Shown: positions 24,477 to 31,070 of the stretch, one piece after another
Numbering within the stretch: position 1 is the stretch's first letter
Layout: every line of letters starts with the position of its first letter
Assembly (NCBI GenBank): GCA_011620215.1
Contig: WOZP01000204.1
Coordinates: forward strand, 1-33,547
Direction of reading: 5' to 3'
Origin: Rugosibacter sp.
GTDB taxonomy: Bacteria; Pseudomonadota; Gammaproteobacteria; Burkholderiales; Rhodocyclaceae
DNA length: 33,547 nt
Made by a program: the position numbers and the translations under genes
Notes under the pieces: model-generated
Databases searched by the model: none
What the model was told of the DNA's origin: nothing
Seen by the model: only the letters and a program-made list of their open reading frames with translations

Positions 24477-25034
24477 ATGACCAAAATCGAACTTATCCGC
24501 AAACTCTCTGAGCTCGATCGACGAGGGATCTATGTGCTGGCACGCCGGGACATCGAAAAGTTGTTCCCAGACGAGGGTGAAAAGTCCATGGAAAAGTCGC
24601 TGCAACGGATGGTGTCCAACGGCCTCTTGCAGCGGGTCGCCAAGGGCCTCTACGTGAACCCGGCCGCGACGAGCAAGAACCGCTGGCTGACGGAGGAGAT
24701 CGCCAAGGCTCTACGCCCTGGGTGCCTCTCGTATGTCAGTTTGGAGTCCATCTTGTCAGAGTATGGAGTCATCTCGCAGATCCCGATCAGCAGGATGACA
24801 GTGATGACGACCGGACGAAGCGGGGTCCACAACACCCCCTTCGGGACCATCGAGTTCACCCACACCAAGCGGGCGCGCTCGGAGATCCTTGGGAGGACGC
24901 TTGCGCCCAAGGGTCGACCGCTTCGCATCGCCACTCGATCAGCGGCTGTCCGCGACCTCTTGCGCGTGGGGCGCAATGCCAACATGCTCATCGATGACGA
25001 GCTCGAAGACGAATCAGAGGTGGAAACGACATGA
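24477..25034 (+). CDS. abiEi: AbiEi-type antitoxin/transcriptional repressor (type IV TA)
   Basis: A 185-residue protein whose N-terminal part (residues ~1-65, RGIYVLARRDIEKLF...SLQRMVSNGLLQRVAKGLYVNP) is a winged helix ending in the 'kGlY' motif of AbiEi antitoxins. The rest (LSYVSLESILSEYGVISQIP, FGTIEFTHTKRA) matches the AbiEi C-terminal domain pattern. It should oppose the AbiEii toxin without a stable protein complex and repress its own promoter, as known for the family. ATGA overlap with abiEii. Start choice: the ATG lies directly after the operator region. Confidence 0.82.
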   Translation: MTKIELIRKLSELDRRGIYVLARRDIEKLFPDEGEKSMEKSLQRMVSNGLLQRVAKGLYVNPAATSKNRWLTEEIAKALRPGCLSYVSLESILSEYGVISQIPISRMTVMTTGRSGVHNTPFGTIEFTHTKRARSEILGRTLAPKGRPLRIATRSAAVRDLLRVGRNANMLIDDELEDESEVETT

Positions 25035-26032
25035 GCGAAAGACAAGACTTCGAGAAGCTGGTCAACCAGGCTATGTCTAATCCCGCCTTATCAGCGATGC
25101 GCCCGGTGGTGGAGAAGGAGCTGCTCCACTACGAGATATTCCAAGCGCTCGACGGCGAAGGCTTGCTCAAAGACTTGGTGTTTCAAGGCGGCACGGCCCT
25201 GCGCCTATGCCGTGGCTCCGACAGGTTCAGCGAGGATCTCGATTTTGCCGGCGGCATCGATTTCAGGGCCGACAAGATGGTCCAAATCAAAGACTGCATC
25301 GAGAAGAGCATTGGAGATCGCTTCGGATTGACGGTCACAGTGAAGCCCAAGCTGGCCAAGGCCGGAGTGGGCCGGGTGAAGGTGGACAAATGGTGGATCT
25401 CGATAGAGACATCCCCTGAAAATCCGGCCATGCCGAGCCAAAAAATCAAGATGGAGATCGCCAATATTCCGGCCCACACCCGGGAACTGATGCCGCTGCG
25501 AGCCAACTACGATTCGGTGCAAGCCATGCCGACAGTCCTTGTCAACACCGAGTCTCTCGACGAAATCATGGCAGACAAGATCCTCGCCTTCCCTACCTCG
25601 TTGAGAGACAGCCAAGGCCGAGCGGCAGGGCTCGACTCGAGCAAAATCCGCCACCGCGACATTTGGGATTTAGCTTGGCTGTCCGCGAGAGGCGCCAAGC
25701 TCGATCCCAATCTGGTAGCCCTAAAGATCGAGGACTATGGCGTCAGTGGCTACGATGACCTGCTTGGCGAAGCAGTCGAGCGACTTCCCGCCATCGTAAA
25801 CAGCCCGGAGTTCACGGCCCAGATGACGCGATTCATTGACTCTGCCACAACATCCAAGACTTTGGACAAGGAAGGGTATCTGGACTATTTGTCGACCTCG
25901 GTTGGGGAGCTTTTCTCGACGATGAGGTCGGAGCTTGCGTCCGCGCTACAAGCCATCCAAAGCCATGCCGTGGCATCCACGGCTGCCGCGCCCAAGGTCA
26001 AGCGCAAACAAACGCCAGATTTGTCGATATGA
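25031..26032 (+). CDS. abiEii: AbiEii/AbiGii nucleotidyltransferase toxin
   Basis: A 333-residue type IV toxin of the DNA polymerase beta-like nucleotidyltransferase superfamily. Visible motifs are FQGGTALRLCRG (residues ~51-62), SEDLDFAGG (Ser67, Asp69, Asp71, putative metal ligands), DEIMADKILAF (conserved Lys) and RHRDIWDLAWL (motif IV Asp). Characterised relatives block growth by nucleotidyl transfer, reported for tRNA in some members; the target here is unknown. All motifs look intact, so the toxin is probably active. It overlaps abiEi by 4 nt and a tiny downstream ORF by 4 nt. Confidence 0.9.
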   Translation: MSERQDFEKLVNQAMSNPALSAMRPVVEKELLHYEIFQALDGEGLLKDLVFQGGTALRLCRGSDRFSEDLDFAGGIDFRADKMVQIKDCIEKSIGDRFGLTVTVKPKLAKAGVGRVKVDKWWISIETSPENPAMPSQKIKMEIANIPAHTRELMPLRANYDSVQAMPTVLVNTESLDEIMADKILAFPTSLRDSQGRAAGLDSSKIRHRDIWDLAWLSARGAKLDPNLVALKIEDYGVSGYDDLLGEAVERLPAIVNSPEFTAQMTRFIDSATTSKTLDKEGYLDYLSTSVGELFSTMRSELASALQAIQSHAVASTAAAPKVKRKQTPDLSI

Positions 26033-26264: not shown

Positions 26265-26939
26265 TCACCCCACCAGCCGCCCATCCTCGAGATGCAGCAC
26301 CCGCGCCGCACGCGCGGCAAGGCTTGCGTCATGCGTGACCATGATCAGCGCCGTGCCGTGTTCGCGGCAGAGTTCCAGCAGCAGATCAAACACCGCATCG
26401 GCTGAGGTGCGGTCGAGATTGCCTGTGGGCTCATCAACGAGCAGGCAAGCGGGTTGTGTAACTAGCGCGCGCGCTACGGCAACACGCTGGCGCTCGCCGC
26501 CGGATAGCGCGCCGGGTTGATGCGTCAAGCGGTGACTTAAACCTACACGCTGCAATACGGCGGATGCTTGCGCCAGCGCCTCAGCGCGCGCCATGCGCCG
26601 GATGAAGAGCGGCATGGCGACATTTTCCAGCGCGGAAAATTCGGCCAGCAGATGATGAAACTGATACACAAAACCCAGCGTTCGATTGCGCAAGCGGCCG
26701 CGCTCGGCTTCACTGGCTTTAGCCAGATCCTTGCCTTGCAGCCACACTGTACCTGCAGTTGGTTGATCCAGCCCGCCGAGCAGATGCAGCAGCGTGCTCT
26801 TGCCCGAACCGCTGGCGCCGACAATGGCCACCGTCTCACCAGCGCCGACTTTTAGATCAACGTCGGCGAGCACCGGCACATCCACTGCGCCTTGATGAAA
26901 AGTCTTGGCCAAACCGAGACAGGAAATAATCTCACTCAT
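26265..26939 (-). CDS. lolD: lipoprotein-releasing ABC transporter ATP-binding protein
   Basis: ATPase that powers release of outer-membrane lipoproteins from the inner membrane to LolA. The 224-residue protein has Walker [10 protein letters not shown] (residues 41-49), Q-loop [17 protein letters not shown], signature LSGGE (145-149) and Walker [12 protein letters not shown] (166-176). The [17 protein letters not shown] segment is typical of LolD within the MacB-like group. Its start overlaps the end of lolC by 8 nt, so the two are translationally coupled. A dispersed 18-bp repeat copy encodes Leu-Lys-Val-Gly-Ala-Gly before the Walker A motif. Confidence 0.95.
26836..26853 (+). repeat. dispersed 18-bp repeat, copy 6
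   Basis: TCACCAGCGCCGACTTTT, an exact consensus match, inside lolD near the Walker A coding region, read in a different frame from the copies in comEC. Confidence 0.8.
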
Positions 26940-28185
26940 AGCGCAAGGCCTCCGCCGGTTGCGTGCGCGAAGCGCGCCAGCTGGGGTAAAGCGTGGCCAG
27001 AATGGTCAGTACGAACGACACTAAACTGATCGTACCGACATCCGACCAATGCATGTCCGAAGGGAGCTCGCTGATGTAATACACATCCTTGGCCAGAAAC
27101 TGCATGCTGAACAGCCGTTCGATAAATGGCACCACGACATCAATATTAAGAGACACCGCCACGCCGAGCGCCACGCCGGCAAATAAACCGATGAAGCCGA
27201 TCAACGTGCCCTGCACGATGAAAATACCCATGATGCTGGGTGGGCTGGCGCCCAGCGTGCGCAAGATGGCAATGTCGGCGCGCTTGTCCTGCACGGCCAT
27301 CACCAGTGTTGAGACAATATTGAAGGCGGCCACGGCAACAATCAACAGCAGGATCAGAAACATCATGCGTTTTTCAATATCCACGGCACGGAAAAAATTG
27401 GCATGACTGCGTGTCCAGTCAGTCACCCCGACATCGGCGTCCAGATAGCGCAACAACTCGCGGCTGATTTTTGGCGCAGCGAACAGATCATCCACCTTGA
27501 GTCGCACGCCAGAGACGCGATCTCCCATGCGATACATTTTTTGCGCGTCGCTCATGTCAATTAACGCCAAGCCGGAATCAAACTCAAACATGCCCACATC
27601 GAAAATGCCCACCACGCGAAACTGCTTTACGCGTGGCAAAATCGCCGCAGGCGTTACCAGGCCTTGCGGCGCGAGCAACGTTACCTTGTCGCCTACGCGC
27701 ACCTGCAAGCCATGCGCGAGCTCTGCGCCCAGCACAATGTCGAATTCCCCTGGCACAAGTTGTTCCAGTTTGCCTGCACTCATGTGACGACTGAAATTCG
27801 CCACTGTATCTTCCGCCTTGGGCACGATGCCGCGCACCATCACGCCACGCACCTGGCCGTCAAAACTCAGCAGGCCTTGCTGCTGCACGAAAGGCGCAGC
27901 AGCCCGCACCTGCGGATGGCGCGCCACGCCCTGCACCACATGGCTCCAGTCGGCCAGCTCACCGGATTCGCTACTGACTTGAATGTGCGAAACCACGCCC
28001 AGGATTCGTTCGCGCAACTCTTTCTGAAATCCGTTCATGACGGATAAAACAATGATCAATGCCGCCACGCCAAGCGCCAGGCCAAGCATGGAAATCAACG
28101 CGATAAAGGAAATAAATTGATTGCCTCCGCCTTCACGGGGCTGGGCGCGCGTGTAGCGCAAGCCGATGAGGAATTCATATTTCAT
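26932..28185 (-). CDS. lolC: lipoprotein-releasing ABC transporter permease (LolC/E family)
   Basis: Membrane subunit of the Lol system. The preferred start at 28185 gives 417 residues beginning [15 protein letters not shown], the conserved LolC/E N-terminus; the track start at 28233 adds 16 residues lacking family character and would sit inside a palindrome. An N-terminal helix ([30 protein letters not shown]) is followed by a periplasmic domain and three C-terminal helices (FtsX fold), ending [18 protein letters not shown]. Only one permease gene is present, so the complex may be a homodimer (LolF-like) or a second gene lies elsewhere. Confidence 0.93.
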
Positions 28186-28225
28186 GGAAAATAAACGGAG
28201 AGCACCATCGGTAATTGCGAATAAG

Positions 28226-28247
28226 CTCTGCATGTTAACATGCAGAG
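28226..28247. promoter_or_regulatory. perfect 22-bp palindrome in the lolC / RpfE-like divergent gap
   Basis: CTCTGCATGTT followed directly by its reverse complement AACATGCAGAG, ending immediately before the ATG at 28248. It lies 41 bp upstream of the preferred lolC start, between two divergent genes. As DNA it could be an operator; as RNA it would form a hairpin covering the ribosome-binding region of the RpfE-like gene. Confidence 0.6.
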
Positions 28248-29327
28248 ATGCTTACGCTTATTGTTCCAGGCTTGATTTGGCCGCATCAGGCGCTTCTCGA
28301 CCTCACTCGCGGCCTGACTCGTGATCTCACTCAACAACAGGCCCTGCCCGCTTTTTCCACCTTGCTCGGCCGGGGCAAACTTACCCGCTTGCCGCCTTGC
28401 ACCATCCATCAATCCATTGCACAAGCCCTTGGTCTGGTGACATCCGGTTCAACTGCAACCTTGCCTGCTGCGGCACTGCGCGGGTTAACCGGGTTAACCG
28501 GGTTAACCCTTGGTACGCAAAACACCAGCCACACGGACGACTGGCTATGTCTGGACCCCATCCACCTACGTGTCGAGCAAACACGTTTGCGCGTCGACGA
28601 CCCGCAGTTTCTCGACTTGAGTGCGGCCGAAGCCGAAGCACTCGCCGTCTCGCTAGCGCCGACTTTTTCAGCCTTGGGCATCTTGCAGGTGCTGAACCCT
28701 ACCGCGTGGAATCTTCGCCTGCACGCCAGCGCACCTACCCTTACTTTATTGCCACCTCTGCCTGACCACATTGCCCGCGCAGCGATACCGCTGCCTAAAA
28801 ACGAAGCAACTGCCCCGTGGCGACACGCCATCAACGAAGCAAACATGCTGCTGCACACGCATCCGGTCAATCTGGCACGAGAAGCCGCCGGAAAGCTGAC
28901 CATCAACACCCTTTGGCCGTGGGGGAACGGCTGCCTGCCAGCCTCAGCCATAAAAACGATGCCTCCTTTTGAAGCCTTCTGGGGTAATGATCTGGTTACC
29001 CAAGGCGCGGCAATTCATCAAGGCACACCAGTGAAAAATTTGCCATCGCGCTTTGAAAACCTGACGACCCATAATGCGCTGGTGCTGCTTGACCCGCTCG
29101 AGATCCCCGCCCGCAGCGGCGATACCGACGCCTGGCGAGCCGCGCTTTTACAGCTGGAAACTGATTGGTTTGCCCCGCTGCTGGCGTCACTGAAGCGCCG
29201 CCAGATCAAGCATCTCCGCTTGATAACCCCAGGCGAGGCCGCCAGTTTTGAACTCATCATTCGCCCTCACCACACTTGGCAATTCTGGCGCTCTGCTGCG
29301 CGTCTTACCGTACTTGCCGCGCCTTGA
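28248..29327 (+). CDS. RpfE-like / COG4255 protein
   Basis: A 359-residue protein starting MLTLIVPGLIWPHQALLDL. The central part (INEANMLLHTHPVNLAREA, then INTLWPWGNGCLP) resembles proteins annotated as RpfE-type regulatory or phosphoglycerate-mutase-like proteins, which in xanthomonads and betaproteobacteria are encoded next to recJ. The biochemical function is unknown. It is divergent from lolC and 33 bp upstream of recJ. Odd features are a perfect palindrome directly before the start, three in-frame copies of CGGGTTAAC (GLT-GLT-GLT), and a copy of the dispersed repeat encoding Ser-Leu-Ala-Pro-Thr-Phe. Confidence 0.72.
   Translation: MLTLIVPGLIWPHQALLDLTRGLTRDLTQQQALPAFSTLLGRGKLTRLPPCTIHQSIAQALGLVTSGSTATLPAAALRGLTGLTGLTLGTQNTSHTDDWLCLDPIHLRVEQTRLRVDDPQFLDLSAAEAEALAVSLAPTFSALGILQVLNPTAWNLRLHASAPTLTLLPPLPDHIARAAIPLPKNEATAPWRHAINEANMLLHTHPVNLAREAAGKLTINTLWPWGNGCLPASAIKTMPPFEAFWGNDLVTQGAAIHQGTPVKNLPSRFENLTTHNALVLLDPLEIPARSGDTDAWRAALLQLETDWFAPLLASLKRRQIKHLRLITPGEAASFELIIRPHHTWQFWRSAARLTVLAAP
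28481..28507. repeat. three tandem copies of CGGGTTAAC in the RpfE-like gene
   Basis: A 9-bp unit repeated exactly three times, in frame, encoding Gly-Leu-Thr repeats. Each unit contains the palindrome GTTAAC, also the centre of the 22-bp palindrome at 28226-28247. Slippage would change the protein by three residues without a frameshift. Confidence 0.8.
28650..28667 (+). repeat. dispersed 18-bp repeat, copy 7
   Basis: TCGCTAGCGCCGACTTTT: the 13-bp core is exact, with two differences in the 5' part. It lies inside the RpfE-like gene on its coding strand. Confidence 0.75.
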
Positions 29328-29360: not shown

Positions 29361-31070
29361 ATGACACAAACCAACCAGACCATCCACATCGCCCAGCGAG
29401 ACATCCCGCCACGCGCCACCTGGGTATTGCAAGAAGCGGGGGTGCATCCCTTGCTGGCGCGCTTGTACGCCGCACGTGGCGTGCGTGCCGGTGATGAACT
29501 GGATACTCGCAGCGCCGCACTGCTTCCCCCCGATCAGCTCAAAGGCGCAACAGAGGCCGCACGCTTGCTGGCCGATGCCATCGCGGCCAAAAAACGCCTG
29601 CTGATTGTGGCCGACTACGACTGCGATGGCGCTACCGCCTGTGCCGTGGGTCTGCGTGCGCTGCGCATGATGGGTGCCACGGTGGAGTACCTGGTGCCCG
29701 ACCGTTTCAAGCTCGGCTATGGACTATCGCTCGAGGTAGCCAAGCTGGCAGCCGAGCGCCAGCCCGATGTGGTCATCACGGTGGATAACGGCATCGCCAG
29801 CATGGAGGGTGTCGCCGAGCTCAAAGCTCGCGGTATCGCGACGCTGATTACCGATCACCATCTGCCGGGGGCTGAGCTGCCCGCTGCCGATGTGATCGTC
29901 AACCCTAACCAACCGGGCTGTACTTTCCCCAGCAAGGCACTGGCGGGGGTTGGCGTGATGTTTTATGTAGCGCTGGCGCTGCGCGCCGAACTGCGCCAGC
30001 GGGGAGCCTTTAGCCAAAGCCAGGAGCCCAATCTGGCCAGCCTGCTGGATCTCGTCGCGCTGGGCACCGTGGCCGACGTGGTCGCGCTGGATCGCAACAA
30101 TCGTATTCTCGTCACGCAGGGCCTCACCCGGATGCGCGCGGGCCACATGCAGGCCGGTGTGCGAGCCTTGTTTACCATTGCCGGACGCGAGCCGACGCGT
30201 GCGGCCACGTTTGATTTAGGCTTCATGCTGGGGCCGCGGCTCAATGCAGCAGGCAGACTGGCAGATATGTCGCTCGGCATTGAAGCCTTGATTACCGATG
30301 ATGCCGCCCGCGCCATGAACATCGCGCAGGAACTGGATGCCATCAACCGTGAGCGGCGCGTGATCGAGACTGACATGAAAGAAGATGCCGAGCTGATTCT
30401 CGCCTCTCTCGAGCCGGCCGATCAAGCCAGTCTGACGCTGTTTGATCCTGACTGGCATCAGGGTGTCATCGGCATTCTCGCGGGCCGCGTCAAAGAAAAA
30501 TTTCACCGGCCAACCTTTGCTTTCGCGCGTGGCGATGAAGGTGAACTCAAAGCATCAGGCCGCTCGATACCCGGCCTGCATTTGCGCGATGCGCTGGATC
30601 TGGTCAGCAAACGCGTGCCCGGCCTGCTATTACGCTTCGGCGGCCATGCGGCCGCCGCCGGACTCACGCTGGAAGAAGATCGCCTGGCAGAATTTGAAGA
30701 GGCTTTCGAGACAGTTTGCCGCGAACTGATTTCACCCGGCGATCTCACTCGCACGCTGGAGACCGATGGCCCGCTGGAAAGCGGCTATTTCTCGCTGGAA
30801 GCCGTCCGCCTGATGCAACAGGAAGTCTGGGGGCAAGCCTTTCCAGCCCCCTTGTTTAACGACACGTTCGAGGTGGTTCACCAAAAACTGCTCAAGGATA
30901 AGCACTTGAAGCTGCGCCTGAAAAAAGGTCACATGCAGTTTGAAGCCATTCAGTTTAACTTTTCAGGCAGCGCACCCAATCTGATCCATGCGGCGTTTCG
31001 TCTGGACATCAATGAATGGAATGGCACTCAAACGGTGCAACTGCTACTGGAACACTTCGAGGCGGCATAG
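29361..31070 (+). CDS. recJ: single-stranded-DNA-specific exonuclease RecJ
   Basis: 5'-3' ssDNA exonuclease of recombination and mismatch repair. The 569-residue protein has the DHH phosphoesterase motifs DYDCDG (residues 85-90), VDNGI (141-145) and TDHH (164-167), then LNAAGRL, a DHHA1 domain with FGGHAAAAGLTL and a C-terminal OB-fold region. All metal-binding motifs look intact. It is 33 bp downstream of the RpfE-like gene, so probably in one transcript with it. It converges on the c-di-GMP protein. Confidence 0.96.
   Translation: MTQTNQTIHIAQRDIPPRATWVLQEAGVHPLLARLYAARGVRAGDELDTRSAALLPPDQLKGATEAARLLADAIAAKKRLLIVADYDCDGATACAVGLRALRMMGATVEYLVPDRFKLGYGLSLEVAKLAAERQPDVVITVDNGIASMEGVAELKARGIATLITDHHLPGAELPAADVIVNPNQPGCTFPSKALAGVGVMFYVALALRAELRQRGAFSQSQEPNLASLLDLVALGTVADVVALDRNNRILVTQGLTRMRAGHMQAGVRALFTIAGREPTRAATFDLGFMLGPRLNAAGRLADMSLGIEALITDDAARAMNIAQELDAINRERRVIETDMKEDAELILASLEPADQASLTLFDPDWHQGVIGILAGRVKEKFHRPTFAFARGDEGELKASGRSIPGLHLRDALDLVSKRVPGLLLRFGGHAAAAGLTLEEDRLAEFEEAFETVCRELISPGDLTRTLETDGPLESGYFSLEAVRLMQQEVWGQAFPAPLFNDTFEVVHQKLLKDKHLKLRLKKGHMQFEAIQFNFSGSAPNLIHAAFRLDINEWNGTQTVQLLLEHFEAA

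Follow-up and report, generated by a model that had tools for sequence, protein, structure and literature searches.

A self-complementary ten-base extended -10 core as a probable shared promoter of the divergent rpfE-recJ and lolC-lolD operons

The central ten bases of a palindrome that directly precedes an rpfE-like gene of Rugosibacter probably constitute a symmetric bidirectional promoter of the housekeeping type, which would be common to the rpfE-recJ operon and the divergently oriented lolC. Judged from its sequence, this arrangement would belong to a known kind of promoter, which appears here in an unusually compact, conserved and leaderless form. In the window, i.e. the whole stretch of DNA that was analyzed (33,547 nt), the element is flanked by the following genes:

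26265-26939, minus strand: lolD, ATPase gene downstream of lolC (TIGR02211 LolD, above cut-off)
26932-28185, minus strand: lolC/E-type lipoprotein-releasing permease gene, 417 amino acids (TIGR02212 lolCE, above cut-off)
28248-29327, plus strand: rpfE-like gene, 359 amino acids (open reading frame)
29361-31070, plus strand: recJ (TIGR00644, above cut-off)

The gap between rpfE and recJ is 33 bp, and the two genes are probably co-transcribed. A Pfam search with the rpfE-like protein gave no match, and its residues ~180-248 show weak similarity to the cofactor-independent phosphoglycerate mutase or proposed homoserine kinase models of NCBIfam, with scores far below the cut-offs. At 28485-28512, rpfE contains a tandem GGGTTAACC-type 9-bp repeat (Gly-Leu-Thr repeated) that is shorter in genome G003, and two tandem rpfE matches exist in one genome of another genus (L100, G227:C8:20553-22104). 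At 24477-26032 of the window, two adjoining open reading frames resemble an AbiEi/AbiEii-type toxin-antitoxin pair, by eye only.

The palindrome itself is as an earlier note on this DNA had described it: CTCTGCATGTTAACATGCAGAG is perfectly symmetric over 22 bp (28226-28247), its 3' end directly abuts the rpfE ATG at 28248, and it thus occupies the position of a ribosome-binding site. It is located 41-62 nt upstream of the conventional lolC start (28185, minus strand), and a longer lolC reading frame that begins inside the palindrome is unlikely to reflect the true gene start. No other palindrome with arms of at least 8 bp exists within the window. Palindromes with 11-bp arms are expected by chance ~0.009 times per window but ~0.6 times per 2.38-Mb genome, and the length is therefore notable for the window and not for the genome. 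An intrinsic terminator, i.e. a GC-rich stem with a stretch of T behind it, was sought and not found. The features in and around the palindrome are these:

28226-28247, no strand assigned: 22-bp palindrome, made up of a 10-bp core between two discriminator-like flanks of 6 bp (from the sequence)
28232-28241, no strand assigned: self-complementary core ATGTTAACAT, in which the putative extended -10 elements of the two strands overlap (from conservation)
28215-28220, plus strand: weak -35-like hexamer TTGCGA (4/6) with a 15-bp spacer, minor if real (from the sequence)
28233-28241, plus strand: putative extended -10 (TG t TAACAT) for rpfE-recJ, with the hexamer at 28236-28241 as -12 to -7 (from the spacing and the lack of a Shine-Dalgarno sequence)
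28248, plus strand: predicted rpfE transcription start, the A of the ATG (7 bp past the last -10 hexamer base)
28232-28240, minus strand: putative extended -10 (TG t TAACAT) for lolC-lolD, with the hexamer from 28237 down to 28232 (from the symmetry and the tracking of base 1)
28225-28226, minus strand: predicted lolC transcription start, C 28225 or G 28226, ~22-23 bp from the rpfE start (from the -10 position)
28186-28225, minus strand: predicted 40-nt lolC leader without a recognizable Shine-Dalgarno sequence (from the sequence)

The earlier note had made its reading depend on conservation of the palindrome in relatives, and this was found for one part of it only. In 146 upstream regions of rpfE orthologues, conservation is strong and confined to the central ATGTTAACAT. 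Perfect symmetry over the full 22 bp exists in this genome alone and over 20 bp in its three closest relatives, the outer arms being conserved in closest relatives only, and across 19 genera the outer-arm pairing at offsets 6-12 is at the chance level that was obtained by shuffling left and right flanks between these genera. The entire 22-bp palindrome was thereby ruled out as a conserved unit.

A core of the class TGnTAnCAT is present in 57 of the 146 regions, which belong to 22 genera of one bacterial family. As the class was defined by this very pattern, the invariance of TG, TA and CAT inside the 57 loci is partly circular, but the spacing and the other core columns were not fixed by the selection. 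The spacing to the rpfE ATG is 5-9 nt in 55 of the 57 loci (6 nt in 36, 7 nt in ten, 5 nt in seven, and 8-9 nt in two). Outside the family, a search for start-adjacent cores across the order gave isolated matches only. The closest named relatives of the 2.38-Mb draft genome are metagenome-assembled Rugosibacter genomes. Relatives that are assembled into one or few contigs (G007, G018, G031, G035) have the core as well, and it is thus not an assembly artefact. The sequence ATGTTAACAT occurs once in this genome, and genomes of the family usually contain zero or one copy, which argues against an operator of a regulon. Other rpfE genes are preceded by asymmetric extended -10 elements, either at the same 6-nt spacing, as in G298 (TGCTACACT, ATGCTACACT), or as a second conserved promoter type, GTGCTAGACT, which lies 27 nt from the ATG in nearly all cases (L061, L065, L066, L075, L080 and others, genera g69, g73, g91 and g27); at these GTGCTAGACT-type loci, lolC is distant or absent.

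In the rpfE direction, TGTTAACAT ends 6 nt before the ATG and the first T of TAACAT is 12 nt before it, and the 5-9 nt found at the conserved loci is the distance that is needed for a transcription start at the A of the ATG. Bacterial leaderless genes are marked by a TAnnnT motif ~12 bp upstream of their start codons (PMC3160421), and rpfE has such a -10 element at ~10-12 bp. TAACAT is a mediocre -10 hexamer, and no conserved -35 column was seen in the relatives; a TG, however, is present at 28233-28234 of the plus strand (positions -15/-14), mirrored on the minus strand, and a TGn is able to make up for a poor -35 (PMC2613000). No Shine-Dalgarno sequence was found before rpfE, where only a GAG adjoins the ATG; AGG, GGA or GAG of any kind occur in seven of 55 core-to-ATG spacers, and the spacers are not purine-rich (43% purine). 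The lack of a Shine-Dalgarno sequence together with the spacing of the extended -10 suggests that the rpfE mRNA is leaderless, and a leaderless rpfE promoter is in our view very likely. A strict leaderless pattern matched eight times in this genome versus once in a reversed control, which weakly supports the idea that further genes of this genome may be leaderless.

Being identical to its reverse complement, the core is likewise an extended -10 element towards lolC: ATGTTAACAT yields TGTTAACAT on both strands, the -10 elements of opposite strands overlap, and the key bases -7T and -11A are found in both directions. As the predicted +1 at 28225 is a C, initiation for lolC probably moves to G28226. 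In this genome and three related ones, the lolC ATG is 46 nt from the core; within this subclade, lolC thus does not start leaderless and has a poor -35. The leader contains a possible small upstream reading frame, MVLSVYFP (28183-28209, minus strand), the stop of which overlaps the lolC start (ATGA); by eye, it appears not to be preserved in G007. The lolC ATG is as close as 5-11 nt beyond the core in 26 loci, where both genes hence look leaderless, with ~21-25 bp between their start codons. Among 14 lolC genes from genomes in which lolC is separated from or set further from rpfE, six have their own TAnnnT (TAACAT or TAGAAT) 7-9 nt before the ATG, at a chance expectation of ~0.06 each.

Another link of the core to lolC comes from its first base, which is the -7T position of the lolC strand. 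Of the 42 core-class loci with lolC at no more than 60 nt, 41 have A as base 1 and one has G, and of the 15 loci without a near lolC, 11 have G and four have A (Fisher p=8e-8). As the sequences are related, Fisher values overstate independence, and the permutation within genera is safer (p=0.0013). The association holds at lolC cut-offs of 30, 60, 100 and 420 nt, the cut-off having been picked after the data were seen. The same trend exists in 48 non-core extended -10 loci, where A occurs in 11 near and 15 not near cases and other bases in none and 22, respectively (p=4e-4). The -7T of the lolC strand is therefore lost mainly where lolC is not near. The CAT of the core stays conserved in lolC-less loci, and full symmetry is thus not maintained by lolC alone. 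Genome G003 has two copies of the core: one, at 46 nt from lolC, retains ATGTTAACAT, though only an rpfE remnant follows, and the other, before the intact rpfE, is GTGTTAACAT, with base 1 changed to G. The order after the lolC-side core at this locus (L180, G003:C98) is a broken rpfE start (MLTFVVPDLHMP-stop), a small gene that encodes a putative membrane protein, the second core, and the intact rpfE.

How could such an element function? On the plus strand, transcription from the extended -10 TGTTAACAT would begin with the A of the rpfE start codon and give a leaderless rpfE-recJ mRNA. Read from the minus strand, the ten core bases would also serve as extended -10 for lolC-lolD, and the two starts, on opposite strands, would be ~22-23 bp apart. 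RNA polymerase would bind the core in one orientation or the other, and a single promoter core would consequently be common to both operons, which would compete for it. As for the outer arms, they would be the two discriminator regions, and their symmetry in the closest Rugosibacter relatives may stem from descent and chance. Start sites, leaderless translation and polymerase competition are what we infer from the sequence, conservation and spacing of the core and from the covariation of its lolC half with lolC proximity. A more far-reaching version, to which we give an even chance, is that the ten-base palindromic extended -10 would be the entire conserved promoter of two divergent operons, i.e. 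of Lol lipoprotein export and rpfE-recJ, that in many genera both mRNAs would be leaderless, with start codons ~21-25 bp apart, and that polymerase orientation alone would set the ratio of the operons.

What alternatives exist for a symmetric bidirectional promoter? The core could be the extended -10 of a leaderless rpfE promoter only, with the lolC promoter elsewhere and the palindromy incidental. The CAT that is retained in lolC-less loci and the asymmetric extended -10 elements before rpfE in other genera would agree with such a unidirectional promoter, but base 1 follows the proximity of lolC within genera as well as at the duplicated locus of G003, and in the 26 loci with a close lolC ATG a second promoter could hardly be accommodated without reaching into the coding sequence of rpfE; we consider this explanation unlikely. 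That the lol genes and rpfE-recJ are served by one common element, as the earlier note had proposed, is supported by the symmetric core and by the tracking of base 1, but the operator that it envisaged for this purpose has lost ground. The perfect symmetry, the position common to divergent operons, and the 20-22 bp of symmetry in the closest species could be due to a dimeric transcription factor that is dedicated to this palindrome and regulates both operons together. Against it stand the uniqueness of the core in the genome and its usual zero to one copies in the family, outer arms that do not co-vary across genera, the spacing to the start codon that is locked at 5-9 nt, the asymmetric replacements elsewhere, and the fact that -10 recognition explains all conserved letters, which together make such an operator quite improbable. 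A repressor that overlaps the promoter, or a dedicated operator with a single site, is possible.

An RNA hairpin that forms at the 5' terminus of the rpfE transcript and restricts its translation, the other mechanism that had been suggested, is very improbable, although the strand folds better than its shuffles (z -2.2) and G007 has one two-sided arm change (T-A to G-C). As the start predicted from the core is at the ATG, after the palindrome, the hairpin would not be part of the rpfE mRNA; moreover, only the central 10 bp are conserved and the arms are lost in most genera, there is no Shine-Dalgarno sequence or other ribosome-binding site to hide, and the upstream DNA belongs to the divergent lolC. 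Finally, ~0.6 palindromes of this length per genome would permit a chance palindrome without function, which nevertheless has practically negligible probability, as chance is refuted for the core by its fixed spacing in 22 genera; the outermost arm bases may have arisen by chance.

With the symmetric bidirectional promoter as the preferred reading, the locus offers evolutionary evidence that the symmetry of such promoters is kept for function, as the half that serves lolC decays once lolC has ceased to be a near neighbour. The promoter would be very compact and would connect a repair gene with a lipoprotein-export operon, lolC being an essential gene in E. coli, and it would provide a natural system for polymerase competition and leaderless translation in Betaproteobacteria. 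Symmetric bidirectional promoters were recognized from start-site maps, and a published map of this kind for the core-bearing family was not found in the literature.

Bidirectional promoters with symmetric -10 elements were reportedly described by Warman et al. in 2021. Like these, the element has a self-complementary -10 region between divergent operons, with shared -10 bases. Bidirectional promoters have been defined by divergent starts that are 7-25 bp apart (PMC10268837), and with overlapping -10 elements the starts are commonly 10, 18 or 23 bp apart (PMC12825309); the distance of 22-23 bp that is predicted here from sequence would correspond to one of these common distances. Unlike the known cases, the extended -10 is here perfectly palindromic on both strands and conserved in 22 genera, the start appears to be leaderless on one or both sides, and no regulator site is known. 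The TAACAT 6 nt before the ATG and the lack of a Shine-Dalgarno sequence resemble leaderless bacterial genes (PMC3160421), but the -10 is here common to a divergent gene that itself often appears leaderless. Similarly, the TG at -15/-14 and the weak or absent -35 are as in extended -10 promoters (PMC2613000), which differ in that the motif is here present on both strands within the same ten bases.
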